64,000 nt of DNA, taken from Bacteroidetes bacterium RIFCSPLOWO2_12_FULL_37_12. GTDB lineage: Bacteria > Bacteroidota > Bacteroidia > 2-12-FULL-37-12. Below the pieces are notes generated by a model that saw only the letters and a program-made list of their open reading frames with translations, did no database searches and was not told the origin of the DNA. The stretch is taken from positions 157,125 to 221,124 of the forward strand of contig MEPC01000042.1 of NCBI GenBank assembly GCA_001769655.1. Reading direction: 5' to 3'. The position numbers and the translations under genes were made by a program. Shown here piece after piece: positions 6,601 to 64,000 of the stretch; position 1 is the first letter of the stretch, and each line of letters starts with the position of its first letter.

Positions 6601-6786
6601 GATGTTCCGAATAATTCGTACGATTTTGAATTATTTGATGTTCTTGGAAGAAAAATATTTCAAACAAAAATCCGGTTTTCAAAATCCTATATTTCACTCG
6701 GACAAATAAACAATGGGATTTATTTTTATTGGTTGAGAAACAATAAAAATACGTTTGCTAACGGGAAGATTTTGGTAGGAATGTAA
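3676..6786 (+). CDS. Multi-PKD secreted protein with T9SS sorting domain
   Basis: About 1036 residues. The ATG at 3676 is preferred over upstream TTG codons because it begins a clean signal peptide (MKSIFLFSRFF, ending LLVAQ). After it come about nine PKD domains, seen as repeated 'W-D-F-G-D-G' cores (YTWDFGDGSTS, YFWDFGDGTTK, IQWDFGDGQTG). Most modules open with an 'ACPGD'-like strand, giving one Cys near each module start. The last ~75 residues (ILPNPVSGNNF, ELFDVLGRKIF, GIYFYWL) are a T9SS type A sorting domain. It is predicted to be exported and anchored or released at the cell surface, probably as an adhesin or matrix protein. No catalytic domain is visible. It lies 77 bp behind clpC and 50 bp ahead of another T9SS protein. 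Confidence 0.88.
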   Translation: MKSIFLFSRFFNLLLTCLVCNATLLVAQINYTYIPTSGCPPLNVTFTNTSITKSDSVFVFHKFKILYHIQSSLGGFYDLLSDNTVSASANDSLKDICNTDSAGAPFTGGWISKNGTMFVKARNSFDYLSSDVAYAKSEYMAGTPSSSVIIPNSYDVYIVRIRNREQYMVLRINIIDPDDNTCSCPNSGSLFFNYRKTGELQVSKYVWDFDDGSPEFEGFNATHTYTTSGFFYPMLKGYDSTGNKFEGVGYAVEVYDNNSNNSIYSADSACPQELVNFSIYSSNVQSYTWDFGDGSTSNSSNPAHAFTTPGTYNIKLILSYKCGIIDTLQKTLKITNNIYPQKPYISVNPDSACPGERVSIYSYGNNYANYLWDYNDGTTSNTINGDHVFINIGNYNVILTVTNGCGLSNSDSVEIKISNNIIPPAPTIYSSTNLACPGDKINFEYYRNSTDKFLLDFGDGSTSDKGYISHSYSNIGTYTVTLKVTNSCGLSNSSSKTIQITNDSPITNMSFSNYDKAKGCPGGEMSFTLINGLSSYTYFWDFGDGTTKYGDSYESHAFANTGTFFVSVKVTNNCGISTILNKSIEIRNDLRIDYNYLNIYLRELSCPNDRNTFFINADGFKNYLWDFGDGQTSSYDGPNSYNVYHSYSTIGTYNVSLKISNYCGIDTTLYDQIVVENGIRFTDDAYFNLNNDSACPGDTLFFRGDNNFTNHFWNFGDGTTSTLENPKHSYNVSGSYNVTYKITNGCGFDTSSMKTVSISNSVLPEIGNDVGIIEDGAICPGDTILFYNAGYYKNIKWNTGDGNTITNFSSLLIENGVERINFGKYAYPNPGTYFPNAIVTNSCNLSDSANFELNITNDNSPALSQIYFSSSTGYEEVVASIPVNFICIGTGKIIQWDFGDGQTGSGIFISHTYTNPGSYTVKLTVINGCGNTALSSENITIKASSGIEEYNLAYSVNVKILPNPVSGNNFILEVSDVPNNSYDFELFDVLGRKIFQTKIRFSKSYISLGQINNGIYFYWLRNNKNTFANGKILVGM

Positions 6787-6800
6787 TGCAAGAATTTTAG

Positions 6801-6808
6801 TAACTTTG
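6801..6808 (+). promoter_or_regulatory. Candidate -7 element, TAACTTTG
   Basis: Perfect TAnnTTTG element 28 bp before the ATG at 6837. No TTTG lies at the expected 19-20-bp distance upstream, so this is a partial match. Confidence 0.35.
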
Positions 6809-6836
6809 TAATTTTCAGTTTCACTATTATAACATC

Positions 6837-46453: not shown

Positions 46454-47218
46454 ATGATGTTTGAATTCCTGAAAAAATTTTTAGGTGGTGGCGCTGAAGA
46501 CATGGAGGATACAGAATTTTTTCCGGTGACTACAGACATGCACTCGCATTTGATTCCCGGTATTGATGATGGAGCAAAAACAACAGAGGATAGCATCCGG
46601 CTTATTCAGGGACTTCAAACCTTGGGATATGCACGCTTAATTACTACCCCACACATAACCGGTGACCATTATAAAAATACTCCCGAAATAATTTTGACGG
46701 GTCTTAATGCACTCCAACAGGTGTTAGCAGAAAGAAAAATTGAAGTGTCATTGCATGCCGCCGCGGAGTATTTTTTAGACGAGTGGTTCTTGAAAAAACT
46801 CCAACAGGGAAAATTATTATCTTTCGGCAGTGAAAATTATGTGTTGGTAGAAACCGGTTTTTTAAACAAACCGGCAAATTTCACGCAGATTATTTCTGAA
46901 ATCAAATCAGCCGGATATAAGCCCATATTGGCACATCCGGAAAGATACTTATATTTGTATGATGATTTTAATCATTATTTCCGGTTGCGAGAGAGCGGAA
47001 TATTATTTCAATTAAATTTATTATCGCTTACCGGTCATTATGGTCCTAAAGCAAAAAAAATTGCCGAAGAATTAATTGATGCCCGTCTTATTGACTTAGC
47101 CGGAACTGATTTACACTCAGAATCGCATTTGGATAAATTAATGATGCTTAAAAAATTACCCTATTACAGGAAGTTAATGCGTCTTCCTTTGCTAAATGAT
47201 TCAATAGATATACAATAG
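46454..47218 (+). CDS. CpsB/YwqE-type PHP tyrosine-protein phosphatase
   Basis: 254 residues. PHP-fold metal-dependent phosphatase: 'DMHSHLIPGIDDGAK' (~28-42), 'ITTPHITGDHYKN', 'YKPILAHPERYLY' and 'LAGTDLHSESH' supply the metal ligands. It dephosphorylates the tyrosine tail of the Wzc-like kinase, setting polymer export cycles. ATG codons at 46454 and 46457 are both possible. It closes the polysaccharide cluster; AT-rich repeats follow. Confidence 0.9.
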   Translation: MMFEFLKKFLGGGAEDMEDTEFFPVTTDMHSHLIPGIDDGAKTTEDSIRLIQGLQTLGYARLITTPHITGDHYKNTPEIILTGLNALQQVLAERKIEVSLHAAAEYFLDEWFLKKLQQGKLLSFGSENYVLVETGFLNKPANFTQIISEIKSAGYKPILAHPERYLYLYDDFNHYFRLRESGILFQLNLLSLTGHYGPKAKKIAEELIDARLIDLAGTDLHSESHLDKLMMLKKLPYYRKLMRLPLLNDSIDIQ

Positions 47219-47371
47219 TAATACAATGGTAACTCAATAGTAATACGATAGTAATAAAATAGTAATACAATGGTAATTCAATGGTATTACAACCGTATTA
47301 CAACTGTATTACTATTGAATTACCCTTGATTGACCAATGACTAATGACCAACGACCAATTTCCAACGCCCC
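47219..47371. repeat. AATAGTAATAC direct and inverted repeats, then ATGACCAA words
   Basis: About six copies of (A/G)TAGTAATAC and ATGGTAAT up to 47290, then reversed copies GTATTAC to 47323. GGTAATTCAATGGTATTAC and its near-complement form a hairpin. From 47330 the words TGACCAATGACTAATGACC lead into the Crp gene, whose ATGACC start is itself one of the words. Confidence 0.75.
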
Positions 47372-48085
47372 ATGACCACACACATTCAACCCGGCTCCTG
47401 CAATTTTCCTGATACAGATTTTTCTTCTTATCTTACCGCTGAAGATATTCAGATTCTCAACCGCCATAAAACCTGCTCTACTTATAAAAAAGGGCAAATC
47501 GTTTTTAATGAAGGAAACTCGCCATTTGGATTATATTTTCTTTCCCATGGCAGTATTAAATTATGGAGAGAAACAATTAAAGATAAAGAAGTAATTATAC
47601 GCTTGATTAAATGCGGTGAAATATTTGGCTATCGTTCCCTTTTAAGCAATGAGCCCTATAAAGCGAGCGCCACTACCCTGGAAGATTCAATAGTTTGCTT
47701 TTATTATAAAGAGGATTTTGTAGAAGTAATGAACCGTAATTCAACGTTTACTAAGCAACTTCTTCACCTTGTTGCGAGTGATATGGGAGAAATGGAAGAA
47801 AGTATCGGAAGCATGGCACATAAATCCATACGCGAGCGCATCGCCGAAAAGTTAATTATGCTCAACAATGAATTCGGAATAAATCAAGAAGGGAAAATCA
47901 TAATCAATGTTTTGTTATCACGAAAGGACATGGCAGATATAACCGGAACCACTACGGAACAAATTTCCCTGTTTCTGTCAGAATTTAAAAAAGAAGGGGT
48001 TATTTTATTTACCGAAGATAAAAAAATTCAAATACTTAAATTAGAAAAGCTGATTCAGATGAGTAAGTTTAATAATACAGATTGA
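47372..48085 (+). CDS. Crp/Fnr family transcriptional regulator 1
   Basis: 237 residues. N-terminal cyclic-nucleotide-binding fold (~35-140: 'KGQIVFNEGNSPFGLYFLSHGSIKLW', in pieces; 'GEIFGYRSLLSNEPY') and C-terminal winged helix (~150-220: 'SIRERIAEKLIML', recognition helix 'SRKDMADITGTTTEQISLFLSEF'). No FNR-type Cys cluster is present. It lies 199 bp upstream of the outer-membrane barrel that opens the respiratory module, and probably senses a small ligand or redox signal to control it. Confidence 0.9.
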   Translation: MTTHIQPGSCNFPDTDFSSYLTAEDIQILNRHKTCSTYKKGQIVFNEGNSPFGLYFLSHGSIKLWRETIKDKEVIIRLIKCGEIFGYRSLLSNEPYKASATTLEDSIVCFYYKEDFVEVMNRNSTFTKQLLHLVASDMGEMEESIGSMAHKSIRERIAEKLIMLNNEFGINQEGKIIINVLLSRKDMADITGTTTEQISLFLSEFKKEGVILFTEDKKIQILKLEKLIQMSKFNNTD

Positions 48086-48136
48086 TTTTTTTCTACTTTT
48101 TTTACAACTACCTGTGGATTATAACAAATTCAACTG

Positions 48137-48149
48137 ACATAAATCATGT
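48137..48149. promoter_or_regulatory. Possible Crp/Fnr half-site palindrome
   Basis: ACAT-AAATC-ATGT in the 199-bp gap before the barrel gene. A weak candidate for binding by either flanking regulator. Confidence 0.25.
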
Positions 48150-48235
48150 TTTCTTTTATTAAAAAAAGAGCATTTTGTGATGAAAAAAGGTAGTCGTATA
48201 TGATAACGGTTATAAACCTATCTCTTTTTCCCATC

Positions 48236-48243
48236 TAATTTTG
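48236..48243 (+). promoter_or_regulatory. -7 element TAATTTTG before the respiratory module
   Basis: Perfect TAnnTTTG 41 bp before the ATG at 48285, with no TTTG at the -33 distance. The lack of a -33 fits an activator-dependent promoter. Confidence 0.5.
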
Positions 48244-48284
48244 TCCGTGTAAATAATATCATTTACTCAAAATAAAACTTAACG

Positions 48285-49514
48285 ATGAAAACCTTAAAAA
48301 ATACTCTGAAAAAAGCGCTCTTTCTGGCAACGATAGCCGGATTGACAACTTTTTCTATTGCCTTTTCACAAGAAAAGCCAAAAGAAGAATTTAAACCATC
48401 CGGAAAAGTTTGGGGGCTAACCTTCGGTGATTTTTATTGGAAAATGGGTGGAGATACTCTTGCGGATAAGACACCATGGGGTGGTTCAGAATTTGGAAAA
48501 AAATATAAAGGACAATCCGGAATAACTTTCCGAAGGATTTATCTTGGCTATGATTATCAACTCGCTCCAAATTTTAATGCAAAATTTCTTTTGGAAGGAG
48601 GAGACGGAGTTACTACCGGCGGCGGAGATAGAACGGTTTATATCAAAGCCGCTAACTTAGAATGGAAAAACATTATTAAGAGGCACTCATTATATATAGG
48701 TCAAGTGGGAACAACCAGTTTTTCAACCGCTGAGGGAACCTGGGGACTACGCGCTGTTGAAAAAGTAGTAGGCGATGCACGCGGATGGCTCCCTTCTAAC
48801 GATTTAGGGTTCAGATGGTCCGGACAGTTGGACTCATCCGGAAACTTTGGTTATCATTTATTATATGGTACAGGAAAAGGTTCCAAACCCGAAGACAACA
48901 ACTTCAGGAAATATTTTATGGGCGTAGATGCAAAATTGATGGACAAAAAAATAATTTTCGCTTTCAATTATGATTTTGAAACACAAGCCGCTTACGACAA
49001 AGATTATTTGCCATCAAAAACAGATTCATTACCGCAAAGCAAATCTACCATAGAAGCTTTCCTTGGTCTTCAATTAGAAAATTTTACAGTAGGATTTGAA
49101 TTAGTTAATCAAACCCAAGTCAATAATAAAAGTCAAAAAGATACTGTAGTAACAAAAGATACCTTATTAGATGTGAAACCGTTTGGCATATCCTTTTTTG
49201 TAAAGGCAAGTGTAATTAAAGACAAACTACTACTATTTGGCAGATACGATATGGTAAATCAGGATACTGAATACAAAAGTGACAGAAAATACAAAGCACT
49301 TGCTTATAAACCCTATAACGAAACGTTTATGACCTTCGGTTTGGATTGGACACCAAACAAGAATGTTCATATTATTCCCAATATCTGGATAAACAGTTAT
49401 ACAGATAACAGAAAGAAACCCGATGGATACGACAAAACGAAGGACTTTGGTAAATATTGGGAAAGAAGTGCTGATTTTGTTCCAAGATTGACTTTCTTTT
49501 ATGTATTTAAATAA
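48285..49514 (+). CDS. Outer-membrane beta-barrel (porin-like)
   Basis: 409 residues. Signal peptide with Ala-rich core (KALFLATIAGLTTFSIAFSQ). The mature protein is strand-rich with aromatic girdles ('FRRIYLGYDYQLAPNFNAKFLLEG', in pieces; 'FMGVDAKLMDKKIIFAFNYDFE'; 'FMTFGLDWTPNKNVHIIPNIWIN') and ends in Phe-containing YVFK, as expected for a phosphate-selective-porin-like barrel. It opens the module and may admit the substrate of the molybdoenzyme. The next gene follows after 31 bp. Confidence 0.8.
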   Translation: MKTLKNTLKKALFLATIAGLTTFSIAFSQEKPKEEFKPSGKVWGLTFGDFYWKMGGDTLADKTPWGGSEFGKKYKGQSGITFRRIYLGYDYQLAPNFNAKFLLEGGDGVTTGGGDRTVYIKAANLEWKNIIKRHSLYIGQVGTTSFSTAEGTWGLRAVEKVVGDARGWLPSNDLGFRWSGQLDSSGNFGYHLLYGTGKGSKPEDNNFRKYFMGVDAKLMDKKIIFAFNYDFETQAAYDKDYLPSKTDSLPQSKSTIEAFLGLQLENFTVGFELVNQTQVNNKSQKDTVVTKDTLLDVKPFGISFFVKASVIKDKLLLFGRYDMVNQDTEYKSDRKYKALAYKPYNETFMTFGLDWTPNKNVHIIPNIWINSYTDNRKKPDGYDKTKDFGKYWERSADFVPRLTFFYVFK

Positions 49515-49545
49515 TTGAAAATTGAGCATTTAACTACAATTAAAT

Positions 49546-50775
49546 ATGAAATCATCAGAAACCACAACACCAAAAAAATTAGCGGCACAAACGCTAATAG
49601 AAGCTGGAAATCAACTTATGTTTTCCAATCACTTCACCGGTGCAATCAAAGAATACAACAGAGCGATTGAAACAGACAACGCCAATGCCACAGCATATTA
49701 TCAGCGTGGATGGGCAAAGTTACAAAATGGTGACAGGGAAGGAGGCATCTGTGATTGGAACACAGCTATTAAATTAAATCCGGATTATGCAGATGCTTAC
49801 GCTGACAGAGCGGCTACCCGTGTAGCCGTCAATGATTTATCCGCGGCATTGTCTGATTATAAAACTGCATTGCAAATAGATCCTGCAAAAAAAAATACTC
49901 TTCTGCCAATCATCACTAAAATAGAGAATGAACTTAAAACAACTTCGAAAGAAAAAGAACCTGTGGATACATACCTTGAAAAAGAAACCGGGATGAATTC
50001 AGTGAGTCGTAGTGAATTTTTGAAAACGATTGGTGGAATGGCGCTTGTCACTTCTGCACTATCAATGTCCGGATGCAATAAGATAGAAGGATTTAACGGA
50101 AAAAAAGGAGCCGGCTGGGGATTCATTATTGATTTACAACGATGCGTTGCGTGCAAGGCATGCGTGATTGCCTGCAAAAATGAGAACAAAACACCTCCAG
50201 GCGTTGCATATAATATGTTTATTGAAGAAGAACATGGAGAATTTCCAAATACATTCTCCAATTATTTCACTCGTCCATGCATGCATTGTGAAAAAAGTTC
50301 CTGCTCAATGGTTTGCCCTGTTTCTGCTACCTATCATCGGGAAGATGGTATTGTAGTAGTGGATTACAATAAGTGTATCGGGTGCCGTTATTGCATTGCT
50401 TCATGTCCCTACGGTGCGCGTTCGTTTGATTACGGACATAATTATATTGCCGATCCCAATAATCCTTACAATCTCATTCCATCAGGCGAATACAACGGTA
50501 AATTTGGTTTGAGAAAAGATGGAGGTTCTCCTATAGGAAATGTAAGAAAATGTATGTTGTGCCTGCACTTACAAGACGAAAAAGGAGAATACACGGAGCC
50601 ACCCGCTTGCTCCAGAACCTGTATGGGCAAAGCCATTCATTTCGGCGATTTGAAAGATCCAAACGGAAAATGCCTCGTTCACGGTGAAAATTTACATGAG
50701 TTGATTGCAAGAAGAAATCATCATCGTTTAAAAGAAGAATTGGGTAACGAGCCAAATGTTTATTATTTGACATAA
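49546..50775 (+). CDS. TPR-fused four-cluster ferredoxin (PsrB/TtrB/DsrO-like)
   Basis: 409 residues. Residues ~10-125 hold three TPRs ('AYYQRGWAKLQNGDREGGI', 'AYADRAATRVAVNDLSAALSDY'). Residues 150-177 read MNSVSRSEFLKTIGGMALVT then SALSMSGC, a Tat-like lipoprotein signal with only one Arg in the twin position. After it are four [4Fe-4S] Cys groups: CVACKACVIAC (200-210), CMHC...CSMVCP, CIGCRYCIASCP and CMLC...CSRTC. It is the electron-transfer subunit between the NrfD protein and the molybdoenzyme. ATG 49993 (Met150) is an alternative start giving a conventional 260-residue exported subunit, in which case the TPR region would not be part of it. Confidence 0.85.
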   Translation: MKSSETTTPKKLAAQTLIEAGNQLMFSNHFTGAIKEYNRAIETDNANATAYYQRGWAKLQNGDREGGICDWNTAIKLNPDYADAYADRAATRVAVNDLSAALSDYKTALQIDPAKKNTLLPIITKIENELKTTSKEKEPVDTYLEKETGMNSVSRSEFLKTIGGMALVTSALSMSGCNKIEGFNGKKGAGWGFIIDLQRCVACKACVIACKNENKTPPGVAYNMFIEEEHGEFPNTFSNYFTRPCMHCEKSSCSMVCPVSATYHREDGIVVVDYNKCIGCRYCIASCPYGARSFDYGHNYIADPNNPYNLIPSGEYNGKFGLRKDGGSPIGNVRKCMLCLHLQDEKGEYTEPPACSRTCMGKAIHFGDLKDPNGKCLVHGENLHELIARRNHHRLKEELGNEPNVYYLT

Positions 50776-50783
50776 TATAATTG

Positions 50784-50812
50784 GTATAGACGGGTTTAAA
50801 ACCCGTCTATAC
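50784..50812. repeat. 14-bp inverted repeat between ferredoxin and nrfD genes
   Basis: GTATAGACGGGTTT-A-AAACCCGTCTATAC, perfect arms with 1-nt centre, in the 71-bp gap. No T-run follows. It could set relative expression of the two genes or be a dispersed hairpin. Confidence 0.8.
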
Positions 50813-50846
50813 TATCATTAATCATTTGTTATAAAATCTAATCAAT

Positions 50847-52067
50847 ATGAATGCAACATCAATACAAGACACCTCTGCAAACAAAGGTTTGCGGAACTTT
50901 GGATATGCAATCCTGACAATAATAACCCTTATCGGTTTATATGCCATTTTTGTAAGGTTTAAGGAAGGGCTTATGGTGACTAATATGACGCAAAATGTTC
51001 CCTGGGGGTTCTGGGTGGCATTCTATATTTATTTTATCGGTTTATCCGCCGGTTCATTTCTGCTTTCCACTTTAATTTATGTTTTCAAAATGGAACAATA
51101 TGAAAAAGCCGGAAAATTGGCACTCATTCAGGCATTGTTATGTATGTTGATGGCAGTTTGGCTCATATTCATAGACCTTGGGCATCCGAGCAGGGCTTAC
51201 AGAGTGCTTACCAACTGGCACAGTACTTCTGTTCTTGCTTGGGAAGCGATGTTTTATGGTCTGTATATAGTCGTAATTATTGCAGAACTCTATTATGTAA
51301 TGCGGGCTGATTTTCACTTTATGAAAACCGGTTCACCATTATCCACTGATTTAGTAGCAGAAGGAAAAAAATGGTTGATGATTCTTGGAATCATCGGAAT
51401 TCCTGTAGCTATTGGAGTACACGGAGGAACTGGAGCATTATTTGCAGTCGCAAAAGCAAGACCGGGCTGGTTTAGTGGTTTATTCCCCATTATCTTCTTA
51501 GTATCTGCTTTAGCTTCGGGTGGTGGCTTACTGGCTTTCATTACCTCTCTCACTTCAAAATTGCCTCAACCGGAAAAATTAAAATTAGTAAAATCTCTTA
51601 TGTCGCTGACTGTCGGTGTAATCGCATTTGACATGTTGCTATTTACTTCAGAAATTTTCATTACTTTCTATGGAGGAATTTCACATGAAGTTAAATCTTG
51701 GACGTTGACTATTTTTGGTCCAAACTGGCCGGTTTTCTGGTTTGTTCAGGTAGGTCTTGGTATGTTAGCACCCATCCTGATTGTCGCCAATAAAAATACT
51801 TCCTCCTCTATCAAATGGCTTGGGTTTGCAGGACTTTGCGTGGTGGTCGGTATCATAGGAACCCGTCTTAACATTGTGATTCCGCCACAGATTACACCAA
51901 CGTTTGATACATTGCCGGAAGCAAATCATCATTTCCGTTTTTCTTACGGATATTTTCCAAGTATCAATGAATGGTTGGTAGCAATAGGAAGCATTTCATT
52001 AATAATCTGGGCATTCATTTATTCACTAAAAAAATTTCCCGTAAATACGCTACACAACACAAAATAA
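50847..52067 (+). CDS. nrfD: NrfD/PsrC-type membrane subunit
   Basis: 406 residues with about nine to ten hydrophobic helices. 'VPWGFWVAFYIYFIGLSAGSFLLS' (in pieces), 'DLGHPSRAYRVLTNWHSTSVLAWEAMFYG' (in pieces) and 'GGTGALFAVAKARPGW' are NrfD-family landmarks. It binds quinone in the inner membrane and links the quinone pool to the ferredoxin subunit. Its end is 31 bp from the preferred molybdoenzyme ATG. Confidence 0.92.
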   Translation: MNATSIQDTSANKGLRNFGYAILTIITLIGLYAIFVRFKEGLMVTNMTQNVPWGFWVAFYIYFIGLSAGSFLLSTLIYVFKMEQYEKAGKLALIQALLCMLMAVWLIFIDLGHPSRAYRVLTNWHSTSVLAWEAMFYGLYIVVIIAELYYVMRADFHFMKTGSPLSTDLVAEGKKWLMILGIIGIPVAIGVHGGTGALFAVAKARPGWFSGLFPIIFLVSALASGGGLLAFITSLTSKLPQPEKLKLVKSLMSLTVGVIAFDMLLFTSEIFITFYGGISHEVKSWTLTIFGPNWPVFWFVQVGLGMLAPILIVANKNTSSSIKWLGFAGLCVVVGIIGTRLNIVIPPQITPTFDTLPEANHHFRFSYGYFPSINEWLVAIGSISLIIWAFIYSLKKFPVNTLHNTK

Positions 52068-52098
52068 ATTGCAACCAGAAAAAATTAATAAAAAAATT

Positions 52099-54648
52099 AT
52101 GAATACACCAACAACAGAATCGCGCAAAAGTTTCCTGGCAAAATCCGTTCTTGGCGCTGGCGGTTTGCTTGCCGGAATGACGTGGCTTTCAAAAGTCCAC
52201 GGAGCCGAAGATTTTAATGCCGAAGTGGATAAACGTTTTAGCTTTAACTCAGGCGAATGGATTCCTTCGTGTTGTAATATGTGTGGTGGACAAACCGGCA
52301 TATTATGTCAGGTTGTAGATGGTAAATTAATCCGCATTAAACCTAATTCACATAATCCAATCGGCTTCAGTAACATCTCTGATGACTTTTTCAATAACTG
52401 CCCCGCAGAAGGCGCATCCATGTGTCCTAAAGGAAATGCAGGAATAATGACACTTTATGACCCAGACCGTTTAGCTAAACCGGTAAAAAGAACCAACCCG
52501 AAAAAAGGACTCAACGAAGACCCCGGCTGGCAGGAAATTTCATGGGACGAAGCATATAAAACCATTGTTGCAAAAATGAAACAACTGAAGGATGCAGGGA
52601 CGCCGGAAGCATTACTTTGGTTTTCAGAAGATCATAGTTTCACTCATATTCAAAAGGATTTTTGCGATTTATACGGAAGCCCTAATTACAGCAATCACTC
52701 CAACTTGTGCGATACAGCGCGAAAAGCATCTTTCAAAGCAGTAATGGGTGATGAAAGACCGTTGATGGATTCTATTCAATCAAAATATATTTTACTTTTC
52801 GGATGGAATCCTTTGGGGGCAACCAAATGGTCGTGTTTGCCGAGAATCATTACTCGTGCATTAGAAAATGGAGCGAAGTTAGTAGTGGTTGACCCGTATC
52901 TTTCTTATACTGCACGTAAAGCGAACGAATGGATTCCCATTCGTCCTTCCACCGATGGGGCAATGGCTCTTGCCATGTGTCATGTCATTATCAGAGATAA
53001 ACTTTATGATGAAAAATTCATTAACGAATGGACTTATGGCTTTGAGCAATTTTCAGAACATGTGAAAGATAAGACACCCGAATGGGCTGAAAAAATTACG
53101 ACAGTGCCTGCGGCAACCATTGAAAGAATTGCTAAAGAATTTGCTAACGCTAAGCCCGCCGTTGTAGATGTGTGGTCTGGTCCAGGGCAACATTCCAATG
53201 CTGTGAATGGAGGCGCCGCTATTGCGGCTCTTGCCGCACTCACCGGTGGTATTGATCGTAAAGGAACTTTGGTTTCTCCCAATAAAAAAGGGAATAGCCA
53301 TCAGCATCTACATGTGGAAAAACCAAAAGCTCCAAGATATGCCGGTGACAATAAAAAATATCCTATGTTTCATGGTTCAGGTTGTTATACCGAAATTTTT
53401 CAACAGCTTGCAGATAAGAAAGGTAATTATCCGGCTAAAATGGCTATGATAGTTTTTCAAAATCCTGTTATGGCGGTACCGGGAACTGAAACCGTTATCA
53501 AAGCGTTGAGTAATCTTGAATTTGTAGTAGTGAATGATATTTTTCTCTCTGAAACAGCATTGATGGCAGACATTGTGGTGCCTGGGGCAACGTATCTTGA
53601 GCGATATGACTGGACAGGCAATTGGGTAACCTGGCCCTCACTTAGTTTACGACAGCCCGTTGTAAAACCGATTTTTGGTCAACCCACTGAGGCAGAATTT
53701 GTTGTTGAAATAGGAAGACGTCTTGGTTTGACTGACTCAGAGGGTCATGAATTTTTCTGGAATAATCCAATCACCGGGGAACGTGAGGAAAATCTTACAA
53801 AATGGTATGAAGCATTTTTCTCTAAAGAAATAATTAACGGCGCTCCTAAAATAACGTTGGAAGAATTTAAAAAATTACCGGGAGCGGTATGGACTACCGG
53901 AAAAACTGAATATGAAAAATACAAAAAAGAGATTGCTGAAGATGTGTTGAAAACAACCGTAGTTGAAAAAGTAAAAATTAAAATGCTTAAAAACGGTGAA
54001 GAAAAAGAAGTGGAGATAGAACATATCTACGACAAACCAAAAGCCGATGGAGGAAAACGATTGGGAACATATTTTATGGTAGAAGATGAAAACAAGAACA
54101 ATGATCCGAAGTTCAAACCAAAAGTAACAAAGAAAGCGGTAAAAGGGTTTATGACTCCTACCGGAAAAGTGGAGTTAGTACTAAACTATCTGAAAGGAAA
54201 AACCGATGCAAATGGTAATCCCTGCAGTGAATTTCCCGATTACAAACAGCGTGACTGGTACCCGAACAATGAATTTCCTTTCTTTTTAATCAACTGGAAA
54301 GAGGCAACGCACACGCATACACGAACACAAAACAATCGCTGGTTACTGGAGTTGAAACCCGAGAATCCTTTACAAGTAAATACTAAAACCGGTGAAAAGC
54401 TGGGTTTATCAACCGGCGATATTGTTTGGGTAGAATCAAAATATGGAAAAATGAAAGCGAAAGTTCAACTCACAGAAGCCATACATCCGGAAGTGGTCGG
54501 CTCGCAACATGGGTTTGGTCACTGGGCGATGGGGAAAGAAGCAAAGGGTAGAGGTTCTACAGATTCTAACTTACGCCCGTGTAAGTCAGATCCCATAGGA
54601 GGACAATCGTTACATAAGGAGTGTTGTGTGAAAATTTATAAAGTGTAA
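52099..54648 (+). CDS. Molybdopterin oxidoreductase, PsrA/PhsA/ArrA/TtrA superfamily, substrate unknown
   Basis: 849 residues from the ATG at 52099; an upstream TTG adds ten residues and is less likely. Residues 7-36 are a Tat-type signal with SRKSFL rather than SRRxFL. The Fe-S motif reads C59-NM-C62-GGQ-T66-GIL-C70 and later SMCPKG: Thr stands where the third canonical Cys (C-x2-C-x3-C) is expected. Cys204 in 'NLCDTARKAS' is the likely Mo ligand, which fits the Psr/Phs/Arr/Ttr group. The C-terminal dihydropteridine-binding region has 'HTRTQNNRWLLEL' and 'HGFGHWAMG'. It works in the periplasm with the ferredoxin and NrfD subunits. Arsenate, polysulfide, thiosulfate or tetrathionate are all possible substrates. 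Confidence 0.88.
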   Translation: MNTPTTESRKSFLAKSVLGAGGLLAGMTWLSKVHGAEDFNAEVDKRFSFNSGEWIPSCCNMCGGQTGILCQVVDGKLIRIKPNSHNPIGFSNISDDFFNNCPAEGASMCPKGNAGIMTLYDPDRLAKPVKRTNPKKGLNEDPGWQEISWDEAYKTIVAKMKQLKDAGTPEALLWFSEDHSFTHIQKDFCDLYGSPNYSNHSNLCDTARKASFKAVMGDERPLMDSIQSKYILLFGWNPLGATKWSCLPRIITRALENGAKLVVVDPYLSYTARKANEWIPIRPSTDGAMALAMCHVIIRDKLYDEKFINEWTYGFEQFSEHVKDKTPEWAEKITTVPAATIERIAKEFANAKPAVVDVWSGPGQHSNAVNGGAAIAALAALTGGIDRKGTLVSPNKKGNSHQHLHVEKPKAPRYAGDNKKYPMFHGSGCYTEIFQQLADKKGNYPAKMAMIVFQNPVMAVPGTETVIKALSNLEFVVVNDIFLSETALMADIVVPGATYLERYDWTGNWVTWPSLSLRQPVVKPIFGQPTEAEFVVEIGRRLGLTDSEGHEFFWNNPITGEREENLTKWYEAFFSKEIINGAPKITLEEFKKLPGAVWTTGKTEYEKYKKEIAEDVLKTTVVEKVKIKMLKNGEEKEVEIEHIYDKPKADGGKRLGTYFMVEDENKNNDPKFKPKVTKKAVKGFMTPTGKVELVLNYLKGKTDANGNPCSEFPDYKQRDWYPNNEFPFFLINWKEATHTHTRTQNNRWLLELKPENPLQVNTKTGEKLGLSTGDIVWVESKYGKMKAKVQLTEAIHPEVVGSQHGFGHWAMGKEAKGRGSTDSNLRPCKSDPIGGQSLHKECCVKIYKV

Positions 54649-54708
54649 CTTAAATAAACATTAAAATTATGGTACTGGTTACTAGTAGCTGACGAAAATT
54701 ACCTTGAA

Positions 54709-55470
54709 ATGAATAGTGAGTACCCATCTTGTATTTCCTGCCCTAATAGCAATTGCTTTATCAATAAGTATTGTTCTCAACATTGGAGAACGTTGATTGA
54801 TAAAAAAAAAGAAGTCGGACGATATCAGCGTAAGCAGGTCATCTTTCATGAAGATAATATCGTCCGGGGGGCATACTTTATTTTTACAGGTAAAGTAAAA
54901 ATATACAATACCGGTAAAGGAGGAAAAGAGCAAATTGTTCGTCTGGTATCTTCCGGTGAATTGTTCGGGTTACGTTCAGATACTGAAACAAACTATCTCG
55001 TCAGTAGCATTGCCTTGGATGACTGTGTACTTTGTTTCATAGAAAAGTCACTTCTGGACAATATGCTTAAAGAAAATAACGACTTTGCAGTACAGTTGTT
55101 AAATTTTTATATCCGTGAAATGTCATTTTTAGAATTACGCCTGAAACATCTTGTTCAATTAAGTTCTGCTGAGAAAGTAGCCGAGGCGTTATTAATGATG
55201 AAAAAGAAATACGGGGTTCTGTCGCCTAAAGGAATTTTGCTTGATGTGAGGATTTCAAGGCAGGATATTGCTGATATAGCCGGGACAACGGGTACAGAGG
55301 CAATTCGTGTGCTGGCAAAATTCAGACAAGAGAAAATCATTGAAGATAAAGGAGATAAAATTGTTCTACTTAAACATGAAAAATTACTGGAGCTTCTGCT
55401 GATGCATTGTTGTGAAAAAGACAATCAATATGTCAATCTATCAAAATGCTATACGCATGTGTTGGGGTGA
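54709..55470 (+). CDS. Crp/Fnr family regulator 2 with N-terminal Cys cluster
   Basis: 253 residues. The first 22 residues hold four Cys: C8-x2-C11-x4-C16-x5-C22, a possible Fe-S or redox centre as in FNR-like sensors. A cNMP-binding fold ('RQVIFHEDNIVRGAYF'-like KQVIFHEDNIVRGAYFIFTG, 'GELFGLRSDTE') and a winged helix ('SRQDIADIAGTTGTEAIRVLAKF') follow. The start at 54709 is the only ATG that keeps the Cys cluster. It lies 60 bp after the molybdoenzyme gene and is likely its local redox-responsive regulator. Confidence 0.9.
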   Translation: MNSEYPSCISCPNSNCFINKYCSQHWRTLIDKKKEVGRYQRKQVIFHEDNIVRGAYFIFTGKVKIYNTGKGGKEQIVRLVSSGELFGLRSDTETNYLVSSIALDDCVLCFIEKSLLDNMLKENNDFAVQLLNFYIREMSFLELRLKHLVQLSSAEKVAEALLMMKKKYGVLSPKGILLDVRISRQDIADIAGTTGTEAIRVLAKFRQEKIIEDKGDKIVLLKHEKLLELLLMHCCEKDNQYVNLSKCYTHVLG

Positions 55471-55491: not shown

Positions 55492-55749
55492 CTAATAATG
55501 ATATTTACAGGAAATAACAATTATAGCATCATCGGTTACCCTGTAAACCAAACGATGTACTTTGTCAATTCTCCGTGACCAGCATCCTTTATATTGATAT
55601 TTAAGTGGCTCGGGTTTACCGGTACCATGAAATGGATCAATTATAATTTCATCCATCAACTTGGAGATTTTCTCAAATATTTTTTTATCTTCTTTAGCCC
55701 ACTCCCGATATTGGTCGTGTGCCGGATGATCCAAAATAATGCGCTTCAT
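55492..55749 (-). CDS. yoeB: YoeB/Txe family mRNA-interferase toxin
   Basis: 85 residues. RelE-fold toxin that cleaves mRNA on the ribosome. 'DPFHGTGKPEPLKYQYKGCWSRRI' (in pieces), 'VHRLVYRVTDD' and the terminal 'SCKYHY' match YoeB, including the C-terminal His-Tyr catalytic end. It overlaps the antitoxin gene by 4 bp (ATGA). Confidence 0.94.
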   Translation of the reverse strand: MKRIILDHPAHDQYREWAKEDKKIFEKISKLMDEIIIDPFHGTGKPEPLKYQYKGCWSRRIDKVHRLVYRVTDDAIIVISCKYHY

Positions 55750-56033
55750 TTCGGAATTTTTACTTTTCTCAGTTTTGAAACATCCGGATTTTTCCCACGC
55801 ATCAAATCTCTGCTGTATTTCCTAAACTCATCAATCGTAAATTCATACCCTTCTTCACTTTTTAACGAACTCTCAAGCATTTTCCGGTTTGCGGGACTTG
55901 CAAGAAGATATTCCGTTTCATCCATATCCTCCTCAACTATGATAGAAATAGGTTTGTTTTTAAAAATCGTTCTTAGCCCTTTCAGAAAACTATCGTCAAG
56001 TGCACTGGCTTTAGTATGAAATTCTGAGTACAT
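55746..56033 (-). CDS. Antitoxin partner of the YoeB-type toxin
   Basis: 95 residues, directly upstream of and overlapping the toxin gene. The middle reads 'MDETEYLLASPANRKMLESSL', a phrase common to YefM/Phd-linked antitoxins. The N-terminus differs from classical YefM. It neutralises the toxin and probably represses the pair. A consensus promoter lies 15 bp upstream. Confidence 0.85.
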   Translation of the reverse strand: MYSEFHTKASALDDSFLKGLRTIFKNKPISIIVEEDMDETEYLLASPANRKMLESSLKSEEGYEFTIDEFRKYSRDLMRGKNPDVSKLRKVKIPK

Positions 56034-56248: not shown

Positions 56249-56683
56249 ATGAAAAATATTTTAATCCTCTGTACAGGAAATTCCTGCCGAAGTCAGATGG
56301 CGGAAGGATATTTTCGTTTCTTCGCAAAAAGTAAAGCAATCATTTACAGTGCGGGTATTGAAACTCACGGAGTAAATCCAAAAGCCATACAGGTTATGAA
56401 AGAAGATGGTATTGATATTTCTTCCCACACTTCCAACCATGTAAATGAATACGCTCACATTGATTTTGATTATATCATAACTGTTTGCGATAATGCTAAA
56501 GAGAACTGTCCTTACTTTCCATCAAAAGCAAAAAAGTTTCATCAAAACTTTCCAGACCCTGCCAAAGTAAGAGGAAGCGAAGAAGAAATAGTACAGTCAT
56601 TCAGAAAAGTAAGGGATATGATCAAAGAATATTCACAAAATTTTATTGAACAGAATTTAGAAGATATATCAAAAGCAATTTAA
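56249..56683 (+). CDS. arsC: Arsenate reductase ArsC, thioredoxin-coupled type
   Basis: 144 residues. Low-molecular-weight phosphatase fold with P-loop CTGNSCRS (Cys8 nucleophile, Arg14). 'VCDNAKENCPYFP' supplies the two further Cys seven residues apart, as in the Staphylococcus Cys10/82/89 triad, and 'FPDPAK' provides the Asp. It reduces cytoplasmic arsenate to arsenite. It follows the ArsM-like stub by 9 bp. No arsenite pump or arsR is in the window. Confidence 0.92.
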   Translation: MKNILILCTGNSCRSQMAEGYFRFFAKSKAIIYSAGIETHGVNPKAIQVMKEDGIDISSHTSNHVNEYAHIDFDYIITVCDNAKENCPYFPSKAKKFHQNFPDPAKVRGSEEEIVQSFRKVRDMIKEYSQNFIEQNLEDISKAI

Positions 56684-59025: not shown

Positions 59026-62000
59026 TCAGGGCTTAAAAATTTTCTGACTTCTACTTATCTGTTTGTTTTTTATCCGTAATTCATAAATACCAGGTTTAAG
59101 TTCTGGGAAATCATCCATGGTTATTTTGTTGCTACCGGAAACAAGTGACACTTGATTTTTTTCATATATCTTTTGTCCCAGCACGTTCAGTAATTCCATA
59201 TCTATTTTCCCCGGCTCTTTTACTTCGAGCATAATTACCGGTTTATCATTTACCGGATTTGGAATAACTGAAATTTTTTGAATCATACCAGAATTTTCAT
59301 TAATAGAAGTTGGAAAAACAGTTATAAAATCAGGGAATTTTCTGGATATTGAACACCCTGACTGGCTGGTGGCATTAAGCGTAATGGTATAGGTTCCGGG
59401 TTTTTGATAGGTGTAAACAGGTTCAGTTTTCGAACTAAAAGCGCTATCCCCGAAATCCCATAAGTACGATTTAATTTGTCCGTTAGAAAAATTTCTGAAT
59501 TGAATGGGTGTATTCACAGTTGTTTGCCTGGGTTCGGCATTTATATCAAGAAAAGGTGAAACCAACACCGTAATGTAATCTGATCGTGAATAGGAGGATT
59601 CGCCGGATTGCCCATACGCAATTAGTGACACTGAATATTTTCCAGGCGAATTGTAACTATGGACGGGGGAATGTTCCGTTGAGGATTTGCCGTTACCAAA
59701 ATCCCAGAAGTATGTTCCTGCATATTCAGTGTAATTATTAAATTTTACTTCAAAAGGGGAACAGCCCAACGTTGCAGGAGTTGAGAATCGCACGATGGGT
59801 TTTGGTGGAATGACTTCAATAAAAAAGGATTTGATTTCTTTAGAAGAACATCCCAGCCAGTTATAAGCAACCAGTGTGACATCATATAATCCAAGATTGG
59901 AATACTTATGAGAGGGGTCTTTCAATGGACTTGAATAACCATCTCCAAAATCCCAGAGAAAGGAAACTCCTTCGGGTGTTTGATTTAAAAAACGAACAGT
60001 GTCACCCACAACCGGTTTCAGATTATCCACTGAAAAGTCAGTGGTTGGTCCCCCACTTACAACAATATATCCGGTTTTTGTTTCGGTATGCGACATGGAA
60101 TCATTGGCTGAAATCAGAGTGACGGTATAATTACCAGGCAAATAATACGTATGTTCCGGTTCAAAATCACCCGAACTGTTCTGGTCTCCGAAATCCCATA
60201 CATACTTGTCAGAATTCAAACTGTTATTTAGAAATTTCACGTTAAATGGAGCACACCCTATTACAGAATTAGTGTGAAAAATAGCAACCGGGTCAATGGG
60301 TGGCACCGGCACCACTTCAATTCGGTTCTGAAAAATTTTATTGACCACACACCCGAATTCACTGTTTACAGTCAGTATGATAGTTTTAAATCCCAACTGA
60401 TTATAGGTATGGGTAGGATGTAACATTGTACTTGTGTCACCATCTCCAAAATTCCACTCATAAGATCTTCCATCAGTAGTTAGATTAGTAAAGGTTGCCG
60501 GCACACCTATAATTGGTTTCAATGGGCTGACATTAAAATTGATAGCTGGACGGGGATGTGCTATGATATAGGTTTTACGTATTTTATAAACGGTACCTGC
60601 TGAATTAGTGGCACCCAGTGTCACTGTGAAAACACCTCCCTGGTTATAAATATGAACCGGATTCGTGTTTTCGCTTTTATTTCCATCTCCGAAATCCCAT
60701 GAAAATTTATCTCCAAACTCCGTCAGGTTTGTAAAATGAATTTCAAGTGGAATACAGCCCTCTGTAGTATCAGCTATGAATTCAGGTACCGGATAAGAAC
60801 CAAAATCAAATTTGAAAATATCATTTAATTTTCCGGAACGCAAGGTAAACGATGAATCATATCCCATTCCGAATCCTCCATAAAACCACAGCCCACCAGA
60901 GGTATCCACCCATCCAGCCATCTCAGTTCTACAAGATAAACTTGTAGATATTCGCATGCTATCTTTCACATTATATTTTCCACCTTCGTTGGCGTACAAA
61001 TTTCCATTTATGAAAGACCATTGCTTTCGTTCAGGATCAAATTTCCACAAGTCGTTCAGGTAACCGGAATTATATTTACTGTATCCGTATCCACCGAAAA
61101 GCCAGATATTATTTCCTTTATCGGTAAGTGTCACTGCGTCTCTTCTTGCGCCTGGAGATAATGTTGAACTGAATTCACCGGAAGGACCAAAATTTCCAAA
61201 TTCATTCACTAATTTTTCACCGCGTATCCATGTCCATTGACGAGTCAACGGATTAAATTTCCAGAGGTCGTTGAGGTATCCGAAATTTATTTCAGAAAAA
61301 CCATACCCGCCTAAAAGCCACAAATTATTATCAACATCAAACCAGGTAACATGGTCGGCACGGGCACCCGGAATATTTCTGGCATCGGGAGTGTTCAATT
61401 GATTATAAATTCCGAATAGATTATTTATATTGATTCCGCTGAACCAAGTCCACTTATTATTGTTGAGATTGTAATTCCAAAGATCATTCATAACGGTAGG
61501 TATCACTGTTGTCTCCATTCCATAACCACCGAAAGAAATTATCATAGTGTCACCAACTATCCATCCTCCAGAATGGTATCTGCCACCGGGCTGATTGGCT
61601 GTAGTTGAAATTCCCAGCTTACCATAAGACCCCATTTGATTGGCTTGATTCGTACCTGCTACCCACATCCATTTGTTTGTAACTACATTGTAACTCCACA
61701 AATCATTTAAAAAGTTAGCACTGCTGTAAGGGCTTCCTCCAATGAGAAATAAATTCCCGTTATCTGATGTAATTGCTGTTGCACCATAACGTGAACCGGG
61801 AGAATTAGTGAGAGACGCAACTCCTTTAGTGCCATAATTTGCTCCTGGATTTGTTTTTTCGGAACCCCCGATCCATTTCCAACCTTTTGCTAAAATATCA
61901 TATTCCCAAAGGTCACCTAATCCGCCAGAATTATCTGCTGAAAAACCATAGCCACCATATAATAATAATTTATGATGAATAGAATCGTACCAACCGCTGG

Positions 62001-64000
62001 CATCGCACCTGCCACCCGGATGATTAAGAGGATCTGAAATATTTTTTTTTCCATAAATTCCCAAGCCATTATTTTTATGTTTTCCATTGGTGTTAATCCA
62101 ACTCCAGTTTAAGGAAGTCAAATTATATTTCCATAAATCTTTAAAGTAATTTGCGAGATAAGGGGTTTCATACCCGTATCCCCCAAAAATCATAAGGTTA
62201 TTTTGATCTTTCCAGCCACCCATTCCTATTCTACCTGAAGGATTGTTTGTAACCGTATCCTGATTTAATGTCCCATAAATGTTTTGTTGATTGCATGCAT
62301 CGGAACCCTTTAACCAGTACCATCGGTCAGTATTTATTTCAAATTTCCAAATATCATTGAGATAACCTGAACCAAAACGACCATATCCATAGCCACCAAA
62401 AATAATCAGATTGCCACTACTATCTGAAATGCCCACTGTATTAGTGCGGCATCCAGGCATCATTGGATCACCCACTCCTGAATAAGAGCCAAACTGATTA
62501 AGTTTCGTAAATCCTTTTTCGAAAGACCATTGGTTTGTAGATTTATTGTACTTCCAGAGAATATTCAAATAACCAAGACGTAACGAATCATCGTAGCCGT
62601 ATCCACCAAATAAATATAGATTTCCATTATTATTTTCAATCAGAACCCCATTTTTTACACCACCTGGTTTTGCGTTGTCAGAGGGAATTTTGATAGTTCC
62701 ATAGATTGCCGAAAGATTGATAAGTGGGAGTCCTTTTACTAATGACCATTTATTATTGATTGCATCGTACTTCCATAAATCAGATAAAAATCCTGTTTTT
62801 GAATCTAAATCGTAACCATATCCTCCATAAAGCCATAAATTTTTATCTGAGTCGGAATAAATAGTCATTGCATCACTTCTTGCCGAAGGATTTGTGAGAG
62901 AATCCAGAATATCTTTTCCTGTAGAATTAATAAATTTATCTCCATTAATCCAAGTCCAATTACCCGAGACCGGATTATATTTCCAAAGGTCGTTCAGGTA
63001 ACCTTGATTAATAGAATCATATCCATATCCACCGAAGAGCCAGAAATTTCCATTAACATCAGTCCATGCATTGGCATATTTTCTGGCACCTGGAAAATTG
63101 GTAGAACTTTCCACTCCTTTTTTACCATATTGGGCTGTAATCTTTGCATAGCCGTTATTTATCCAAGTCCATTTATCCGTTGAGGGATTATATTTCCAAA
63201 AATCATTCAAATAACCAGTCACAGACGAATCATATCCGAATCCTCCAAACATGTAGATAAACTGCTGGTTATCTTTCCAGAAAGCACTACCCTGTCTTGC
63301 TCCCGGGATGTTAAGGTCGGATTCAATATTTTTTTTGTAATAATGCGAAATGTTGTAATTATTATTGTCACCGGCTTCCCATATCCATTGATTGGTTGAC
63401 GGAATATAAGACCAAAGGTCTTTGAGATTATCAACGGGTCCTGAATATTCATAGCCGTAACCACCAAACAACCATATTTTATTGTTGACATCTTTCCAAA
63501 CAGTGGCACTCATACGCGAACCAGGACAATTAGAAGTGTCAGGCAATCCCATGGTACCGTATTTTCCATATTTATTTGAAATATCATTCCCATGTAGCCA
63601 AGTCCAAAATCCGGTGACAGGATCATATTTCCATAAATCATTCAGATATCCGGTGCCACTCTTACTATAACCGGTGCCACCAAAAAGAAAAAAACAACCT
63701 GAATTATCTTTCCAGAAAGAAGTGTAAATCCTTGACCCAGGATTATTTTCTAAGGCACCAGTACCTTTTATCCCATAGTTGCCAGCAGAATTAGGAGTAC
63801 TGTCACCACTCATCCACGTCCATGCTTTGTTATTCAAATCAAATTTCCAAAGATCATTCAAACTGCCCAAAGAGGAAGCCGCTCTGCCGGTGCCACCAAA
63901 AATATAGAGATTGTTATTATCATCCTGCCAGGTAGCAAACCCATACCGGGAGCCGGGAAGATTTTCGGGACTTGGTATTCCTTTAATGCCATATTTTCCG
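59026..64000 (-). CDS. Giant kelch/PKD T9SS surface protein, N-terminus outside the window
   Basis: At least 1657 residues; the frame stays open to base 64000, so the start is not seen. The first part holds about 15 kelch-like repeats of ~65-70 residues ('LWLFGGYGY', 'GYLNDLWKYNP', 'WTWINGD', 'PGAR'), enough for two seven-bladed propellers. Six PKD domains follow ('FSWDFGDGNKS', 'YEWNFGDGDTS', 'FLWDFGDGYSS'), then a T9SS type A sorting domain ('VIPNPVNDKPVI', 'ELLNVLGQKIYE', 'PGIYELRIKN'). It is predicted to be a large exported adhesin or carbohydrate-binding surface protein. It starts 14 bp upstream of the TonB receptor on the same strand. Confidence 0.9.
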   Translation of the reverse strand, partial: GKYGIKGIPSPENLPGSRYGFATWQDDNNNLYIFGGTGRAASSLGSLNDLWKFDLNNKAWTWMSGDSTPNSAGNYGIKGTGALENNPGSRIYTSFWKDNSGCFFLFGGTGYSKSGTGYLNDLWKYDPVTGFWTWLHGNDISNKYGKYGTMGLPDTSNCPGSRMSATVWKDVNNKIWLFGGYGYEYSGPVDNLKDLWSYIPSTNQWIWEAGDNNNYNISHYYKKNIESDLNIPGARQGSAFWKDNQQFIYMFGGFGYDSSVTGYLNDFWKYNPSTDKWTWINNGYAKITAQYGKKGVESSTNFPGARKYANAWTDVNGNFWLFGGYGYDSINQGYLNDLWKYNPVSGNWTWINGDKFINSTGKDILDSLTNPSARSDAMTIYSDSDKNLWLYGGYGYDLDSKTGFLSDLWKYDAINNKWSLVKGLPLINLSAIYGTIKIPSDNAKPGGVKNGVLIENNNGNLYLFGGYGYDDSLRLGYLNILWKYNKSTNQWSFEKGFTKLNQFGSYSGVGDPMMPGCRTNTVGISDSSGNLIIFGGYGYGRFGSGYLNDIWKFEINTDRWYWLKGSDACNQQNIYGTLNQDTVTNNPSGRIGMGGWKDQNNLMIFGGYGYETPYLANYFKDLWKYNLTSLNWSWINTNGKHKNNGLGIYGKKNISDPLNHPGGRCDASGWYDSIHHKLLLYGGYGFSADNSGGLGDLWEYDILAKGWKWIGGSEKTNPGANYGTKGVASLTNSPGSRYGATAITSDNGNLFLIGGSPYSSANFLNDLWSYNVVTNKWMWVAGTNQANQMGSYGKLGISTTANQPGGRYHSGGWIVGDTMIISFGGYGMETTVIPTVMNDLWNYNLNNNKWTWFSGININNLFGIYNQLNTPDARNIPGARADHVTWFDVDNNLWLLGGYGFSEINFGYLNDLWKFNPLTRQWTWIRGEKLVNEFGNFGPSGEFSSTLSPGARRDAVTLTDKGNNIWLFGGYGYSKYNSGYLNDLWKFDPERKQWSFINGNLYANEGGKYNVKDSMRISTSLSCRTEMAGWVDTSGGLWFYGGFGMGYDSSFTLRSGKLNDIFKFDFGSYPVPEFIADTTEGCIPLEIHFTNLTEFGDKFSWDFGDGNKSENTNPVHIYNQGGVFTVTLGATNSAGTVYKIRKTYIIAHPRPAINFNVSPLKPIIGVPATFTNLTTDGRSYEWNFGDGDTSTMLHPTHTYNQLGFKTIILTVNSEFGCVVNKIFQNRIEVVPVPPIDPVAIFHTNSVIGCAPFNVKFLNNSLNSDKYVWDFGDQNSSGDFEPEHTYYLPGNYTVTLISANDSMSHTETKTGYIVVSGGPTTDFSVDNLKPVVGDTVRFLNQTPEGVSFLWDFGDGYSSPLKDPSHKYSNLGLYDVTLVAYNWLGCSSKEIKSFFIEVIPPKPIVRFSTPATLGCSPFEVKFNNYTEYAGTYFWDFGNGKSSTEHSPVHSYNSPGKYSVSLIAYGQSGESSYSRSDYITVLVSPFLDINAEPRQTTVNTPIQFRNFSNGQIKSYLWDFGDSAFSSKTEPVYTYQKPGTYTITLNATSQSGCSISRKFPDFITVFPTSINENSGMIQKISVIPNPVNDKPVIMLEVKEPGKIDMELLNVLGQKIYEKNQVSLVSGSNKITMDDFPELKPGIYELRIKNKQISRSQKIFKP

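Follow-up and report, generated by a model that had tools for sequence, protein, structure and literature searches.

What does the molybdoenzyme operon of Bacteroidetes bacterium RIFCSPLOWO2_12_FULL_37_12 act on? The operon lies in the window, i.e. the whole 64,000 nt stretch of contig MEPC01000042.1 that was analysed (positions 157,125 to 221,124). A sequence-only reading had recognised a molybdopterin enzyme with its accessory genes and had left the substrate open; the comparative context now narrows it to arsenic, most likely arsenate. Based on gene order, family membership, clade, motifs and the context of relatives, all of which can be read from the sequences, we favour, with moderate confidence, a role in arsenate respiration: the enzyme would be a periplasmic reductase fed by menaquinol, and its lineage is distinct from those of ArrA, PhsA/PsrA and the Ttr-like enzymes. 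The features discussed here are collected in Table 1.

Table 1. Features of the operon, its downstream flank and one related locus (positions in the window unless stated otherwise).
Feature	Position	Strand	Basis or remark
Crp/Fnr-family regulator 1, 237 aa	47372-48085	+	cNMP_binding 7.5e-21, HTH_Crp_2 4.5e-13 (Pfam)
Outer-membrane beta-barrel (porin-like), 409 aa	48285-49514	+	homologues in related islands
Electron-transfer subunit B, TPR-ferredoxin, PsrB-like	49546-50775	+	Pfam TPR, Fer4_11, 4Fe-4S dicluster domains
NrfD-type membrane anchor, subunit C, quinone site	50847-52067	+	Pfam NrfD 1e-46
Catalytic molybdopterin subunit A, 849 aa from ATG	52099-54648	+	Pfam Molybdopterin/Molydop_binding/Fe4S4
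FS0 motif C58-C59-N-M-C62-G-G-Q-T66	52270-52296	+	third canonical Cys is Thr
C109, last FS0 Cys, CPKG motif	52423-52425	+	invariant in alignment A1
Active-site segment H200-S-N-L-C204-D-T-A-R-K209	52696-52725	+	C204 predicted Mo ligand
Crp/Fnr-family regulator 2, FNR-like	54709-55470	+	cNMP_binding, HTH_Crp_2 (Pfam)
YoeB-type pair	55492-56033	-	YoeB toxin above its cut-off
arsC, thioredoxin-type arsenate reductase	56249-56683	+	TIGR02691 (arsC_pI258) 159 bits, cut-off 174
arsC-like gene of the closest relative L075	12517-12954 (L075)	-	ORF adjoining the A operon

All six genes that had been described as one compact forward block are present in that order on the plus strand, with domains assigned by Pfam and, in the case of the barrel, by homologues. 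The barrel itself has no Pfam match; barrels at the same position in related islands share 26-36% identity with it (E 1e-31 to 1e-62), and its homologue in locus L113 matches the BBP2 porin family. The earlier proposal of an exported, quinone-linked CISM complex with its own barrel is supported. Subunit B is made up of an N-terminal TPR extension (residues ~1-122), a signal-like SRSEFLKT segment and a ferredoxin domain with four cluster motifs; its best NCBIfam model is DsrO (157/200, under the cut-off), and it shares 50% identity with the B subunit of L138, which has no TPR. In the region 49546-49990 the TPR extension of ~120 residues is in frame and precedes the signal-like segment, it is missing from the B subunits of L113 (284 aa) and L138 (291 aa), and a Met near residue 149 is a possible alternative start. 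The NrfD subunit is 39% identical to that of L138. For subunit A an alternative TTG start at 52069 would add 10 aa. Its N-terminus reads SRKSFLAKS where relatives have RR, so that Tat export by a non-canonical signal is likely; the signal at 52120-52140 is S-R-K-S-F-L, and most relatives carry a twin arginine, e.g. G-R-R-K-F-L.

The earlier reading had also credited the block with its own redox control by two Crp regulators. Both genes were confirmed, but they are absent from most relatives' loci and for this reason look like a local feature rather than a part of the system. Regulator 1 has Cys at positions 10, 35, 81 and 109 and no N-terminal Cys cluster. Regulator 2 carries Cys 8, 11, 16 and 22 plus Cys 106/109 and scores 57/228 bits with the Fnr NCBIfam model; its Cys spacing differs from that of FNR. 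An FNR-like regulator would fit anaerobic expression, and FNR-like boxes near and upstream of the barrel were no commoner than expected by chance. At positions 47202-47378 there are tandem repeats, first of an 11-mer (CAATAGTAATA) and then of a 14-mer (TGACCAACGACCAA), which reach up to and across the annotated start of regulator 1.

Downstream, a toxin-antitoxin pair and arsenic genes had been noted. The toxin half of the pair stood up to the model search, while its partner has no Pfam or NCBIfam match; this upstream 95-aa protein is possibly an unusual antitoxin. The arsenic genes came down to the single arsC, as the next 20 kb of the contig gave no other ars match. A TonB receptor on the opposite strand comes after arsC, and adjoining the receptor is a 1614-aa repeat protein, kelch-like and PKD-like by eye (59026-63870, minus strand). 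In the host genome (G000, 3.9 Mb, 97.9% complete) neither Acr3 nor an X sensor was detected, so that the operon has no neighbour of the X type with the Cys106 pocket of AioX. Nor did a canonical ArrA turn up: the ArrA model matched only subunit A of the window (E ≤ 1e-20), below its cut-off. The lack of X sensor and Acr3 counts against the arsenate reading, as the evidence in this genome comes by kinship plus one arsC.

Subunit A fits the DMSO reductase (MopB) superfamily by domains (Molybdopterin 5e-41, Molydop_binding 1.4e-18, Fe4S4 2.3e-5) as well as by fold. None of the NCBIfam equivalogs passes its cut-off. Identity with PhsA/PsrA was rejected (NF012032, 408/694 bits; outside the PhsA clade), as was identity with ArrA (NF041714, 239/1600 bits; separate, well-supported clades) and with TtrA (NF011567, 105/1750 bits; apart from the Ttr-like sequences in the tree). 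The tree placement that the sequence-only reading had suggested was carried out with PhsA, Psr/PSRLC2, Arr and Ttr-like references. In the 35-sequence maximum-likelihood tree subunit A lies outside all four reference groups, and its family forms one clade of its own with 100/99 support, which was also recovered with the 71-row and 76-row trees. The PhsA references L084 and L085 were confirmed by model scores of 1302 and 1332 bits, and ArrA is joined in the tree by the Arr/Arx-like loci L009 and L021 but not by the window enzyme. At a split with weak support (93/91) the clade goes with PhsA/Psr and not with Arr, which counts against the arsenate reading. Phylogenetically, the family is thus a distinct lineage apart from the ArrA, PhsA/PsrA and Ttr-like references. 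No description of this clade was found in the openly licensed literature, and we regard its novelty as provisional.

A genome-wide scan yielded about 45 relatives with 44-71% identity to subunit A, followed by a drop to 36-38% (three Myxococcota/Deltaproteobacteria loci) and then to ≤35% among the matches listed. The family spans about 20 bacterial phyla. The nearest kin, at 71-72%, are a myxococcotal (L075) and a planctomycetotal (L037) protein, while an orthologue was found in none of the 98 same-class genomes searched and in only 3/396 genomes of the window's own phylum; horizontal acquisition is the simple reading of this distribution. Carriage of the enzyme on plasmids found no support, as the matches listed were distant PhsA proteins only. 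Two branches can be distinguished. Branch I, which includes the window, usually comprises B, NrfD and A, often with a barrel. Branch II, with members in Nitrospirota, Armatimonadota, Planctomycetota and Myxococcota, comprises a small c-type cytochrome, A and B, to which the Nitrospirota add a Nitrate_red_del-type chaperone. Moco genes are often located downstream of the family operons. A myxococcotal paralogue was seen twice (L122, 976-3705; L139, 8612-11344) in which one 910-aa ORF encodes a DmsB-like four-cluster subunit and, C-terminal to it, the catalytic subunit with a canonical FS0 motif.

The AlphaFold model of subunit A (pLDDT 86, pTM 0.87) was compared by Foldseek, where ArrA (6cz7) ranks first (TM 0.77) and PsrA (2vpw) is the next distinct protein (0.70). 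The Cys ligand to molybdenum proposed earlier was corroborated as C204 in the motif HSNLC, conserved in dozens of relatives; H200, C204, D205, R208 and K209 are invariant in alignment A1. The pattern H-S-x-x-C-x4-K around the ligand is common to subunit A, ArrA and Arr-like enzymes and is not present in PsrA or PhsA, both of which lack the K209-type residue. The ‘RGR’ segment of ArrA is absent from subunit A, and this counts against the arsenate reading.

The non-standard Fe-S motif, likewise pointed out before, was borne out as C-C-x2-C-G-G-Q-[S/T/C], again conserved in dozens of relatives, and neither it nor the Mo-site motif is therefore a sequencing accident. The canonical FS0 pattern C-x2-C-x3-C-xn-C is not found in subunit A; the family motif is S-C-C-N-M-C-G-G-Q-[S/T/C]-G, with C58, C59 and C62 invariant in alignment A1. 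The third canonical ligand (residue 66) is Ser in 28/45, Thr in 9/45 and Cys in 8/45 family members, and it changed at least eight times on the tree. The outlier L122 from the Myxococcota, with B fused to A, has kept the canonical C-x2-C-x3-C. In Nitrospirota the motif is N-C-N-M-C or T-C-Q-M-C and the third ligand position is taken by Ser/Thr, which leaves only three Cys, the one in CPKG included. A relocated ligand near the last Cys, as seen in the window and L113, was rejected as that Cys is not conserved. The cluster could be a [3Fe-4S] cluster, ligated by Ser/Thr, or completed by the extra Cys where present. Membership in the superfamily stands despite the odd motif, because members without an N-terminal cluster are known (PMC10100899).

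In many relatives the operon lies behind an X-S-R cassette of periplasmic sensor, kinase and regulator. The best PDB match of the L138 X protein is the arsenate sensor ArrX (4.4e-58), followed by the arsenite sensor AioX at 8e-39, whereas the phosphite/phosphonate binders PtxB/PhnD reach only 1e-16 to 1e-11. Cys106 of AioX separates arsenic sensors from PhnD, which has Gly (PMC5908839). The matching Cys is kept in 17/17 aligned X proteins, among them those of L155, L156 and L157, Melioribacteraceae loci whose enzyme is either Ttr-like or not seen; the pocket residues Tyr, Ser-Asn-Ser/Thr and His are likewise kept, with small variations. No X-S-R was seen in the available stretches of the subclade of the window, L037 and L075.

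Arsenic genes recur near the relatives: acr3 lies directly before X-S-R in L138, arsC-arsM-acr3-arsR is found beside X-S-R-cytochrome-A-B in L198, arsR-acr3-arsD-arsA is placed inside the island between regulator and enzyme in L190, L083 has arsD-arsA-acr3-arsC-arsM, and L067 has arsJ and its GAPDH, both above their cut-offs. The scan that gave the family also supplied 32 CISM loci as controls. Either an ars gene or an X of the arsenic type was present at 25/71 family loci vs 2/32 control loci (Fisher p = 0.0015) and the X signature alone at 17/71 vs 1/32 (p = 0.01), while ars genes alone (12/71 vs 1/32, p = 0.06) were not significant, which counts against the arsenate reading; all these p-values are indicative only, as the loci are phylogenetically non-independent, the family set stems partly from targeted searches, a few loci may be near-duplicates and the contigs vary in length. 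The arsenic-type Cys motif also occurs in the X protein of the control locus L087 (around 5668), of an Arr-sister clade, which may represent another arsenic enzyme lineage.

Melioribacteraceae share a conserved island consisting of X-S-R, barrel, enzyme genes, AhpD, ChrA and moaA-mobA; several genomes have acr3 or an ars operon next to this island. In genomes G542 and G168 the island holds B-C-A of the window enzyme's family, whereas its A subunit in G535 and G508 is Ttr-like (TtrA scores of 485 and 492 bits). Between G542 and G535 most flanking genes are 55-91% identical (X 55%, kinase 65%, regulator 76%, barrel 71%, AhpD 91%, ChrA 83%), vs identities of about 28% for A, 48% for B and 32% for C in the enzymes. 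That one arsenic island can exchange its enzyme in this way suggests that both catalyse the same reaction or closely related ones. In G535 the X gene is split (at 1.24 Mb) and there is an arsR-permease-arsC-acr3 operon; this matches the published MROS_1063-1076 region, and we infer that G535 is Melioribacter roseus. According to Gavrilov et al., this organism respires arsenate; its ttrA and psr/phsA transcripts are close to nil in the absence of arsenate and increase strongly in its presence, the induction being statistically clear only for psr/phsA (PMC5492636). Significance for a different enzyme only (psrA/phsA) counts against the arsenate reading. Orthology of the window enzyme with MROS_1076 was rejected, as this protein is Ttr-like, though in the shared island. 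The AhpD-like (carboxymuconolactone-decarboxylase) gene and the ChrA chromate-transporter half follow the enzyme in L136, L138, L154 and L157, i.e. in four Melioribacteraceae islands regardless of enzyme type. At two sites of L136 (G168), 6765-7636 and 12827-13762, the same 95-aa ORF (MNQYYVYILASKKNGTLYIG...) occurs near the barrel and downstream of the enzyme together with VIPAKAGIH-type repeat ORFs, a possible trace of mobility.

The arsenic context would also fit an enzyme of the ArxA direction, which oxidises arsenite in the periplasm and passes electrons to the quinone pool via NrfD. The AtoC-type regulators in many loci are nearer to AioR/ArxR than to the CitB-like ArrR (for ArrR see PMC5908839), the Nitrospirota branch has a small c-type cytochrome in place of NrfD, and Nitrospira and Tepidiforma are among the genera of the hosts. 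However, the X protein is closer to arsenate-binding ArrX than to arsenite-binding AioX, the same type of regulator accompanies an arsenate-induced enzyme gene in the putative M. roseus island, and the window operon has an FNR-like regulator; for these reasons we favour reduction and regard arsenite oxidation as unlikely. Another reading is a respiratory antimonate reductase; Acr3 and ArsA also handle Sb(III). AnrA of Geobacter sp. SVR, possibly of the same family, is described as a separate antimonate reductase in the account cited in PMC13284237. Yet the neighbours arsC, arsM and arsJ-GAPDH act on arsenic and the X pocket matches the arsenate sensor, which leaves antimonate as a distinctly improbable substrate.

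A Psr/Phs-type reductase of thiosulfate, polysulfide or tetrathionate is suggested by PhsA being the best NCBIfam model (408 bits), by the PsrABC-like NrfD anchor and by the weak position of the clade on the Phs/Psr side. But the score stays below the cut-off of 694 where true PhsA proteins reach ~1300, PsrA and PhsA lack the K209-type residue, and no recurring sulfur-specific gene was noticed in the loci while arsenic genes do recur, so that we consider a sulfur compound very unlikely. It would finally be conceivable that the family is arsenic-linked and only the window member drifted to another oxyanion (e.g. selenate, chlorate, phosphite) after horizontal transfer, given that its subclade with L037 and L075 is without X-S-R in the stretches seen and that the Crp regulators and the TPR fusion of subunit B are local features. 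As arsC adjoins both the window operon and L075, and the Mo-ligand motif residues are identical to those of arsenic-island members, we give such a drift hardly any weight.

The arsenate reading is therefore preferred on account of the X-S-R sensors, the ars genes of relatives, the cassette swap, the ArrA-like fold and motif and arsC at the window and L075, and it is extended to the window by family membership, conserved active-site residues and arsC. We propose that arsenate would enter through the barrel, that menaquinol would be oxidised at the NrfD subunit, and that electrons would run through the four-cluster ferredoxin subunit and then the atypical FS0 to the Cys-ligated Mo-bisPGD, where arsenate would be reduced to arsenite in the periplasm. 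Expression in the window may be under Crp/FNR-type redox control in place of the ArrX-type sensor of relatives, and arsC may handle arsenate leaking into the cell.

The enzyme resembles ArrAB of Shewanella sp. ANA-3 (6cz7) in fold, Cys ligand, H-S-x-x-C-x4-K and a four-cluster B subunit, and its relatives carry an ArrX-type cassette; unlike ArrAB it belongs to a separate clade, has the third FS0 Cys replaced, misses the RGR segment and comes with a dedicated barrel and NrfD. With PsrABC/PhsABC (2vpw) it shares the three-subunit plan A-B-NrfD, the Cys ligand and the nearest NCBIfam model, but it differs in clade, active-site residues and arsenic context, and the FS0 of the former is a canonical C-x2-C-x3-C. 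The Ttr-like enzyme of M. roseus (MROS_1074-1076) is found in that same arsenic island, together with ars genes, X-S-R, barrel, AhpD, ChrA and Moco genes, but its A subunit (1078 aa, 485 bits to TtrA) has a canonical FS0 and is about 28% identical to A of the window family. M. roseus psrABC (MROS_1774), proposed as the main arsenate reductase (PMC5492636), and PSRLC2 of green sulfur bacteria are likewise NrfD-anchored CISM enzymes. Unlike the window family, the psrABC type has the order MerR-A-B-C; orthology with MROS_1774 was rejected, since its Stygiobacter homologue (L123/L140) is such a locus and groups with Thermus thermophilus PsrA. The X proteins of relatives share pocket residues including Cys106 and the X-S-R gene order with AioXSR, ArxXSR and ArrXSR; these regulate Aio, Arx and Arr, whereas X-S-R of relatives goes with yet another enzyme lineage and is missing from the window copy. 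AnrA is described as a further, antimony-specific reductase.

Respiratory arsenate reduction helps to put arsenic into groundwater, and surveys of this capacity use arrA. If the family reduces arsenate, the capacity would be present in many subsurface lineages scored negative by such surveys. We see about an even chance that it constitutes a widespread respiratory arsenic lineage of ~20 phyla, mostly subsurface, which is missed by the arrA marker model and in which the FS0 Cys was lost repeatedly, with the three Cys of Nitrospirota possibly holding a cluster that is [3Fe-4S] or has a Ser/Thr ligand. Among the carriers of a family enzyme is a named strain, Stygiobacter electus, and the exchange of Ttr-like and window-family enzymes in one island offers a direct route to testing whether both do the same job. 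The FS0 motif would further allow one to ask whether a CISM enzyme works with a Ser/Thr or adjacent-Cys ligand.
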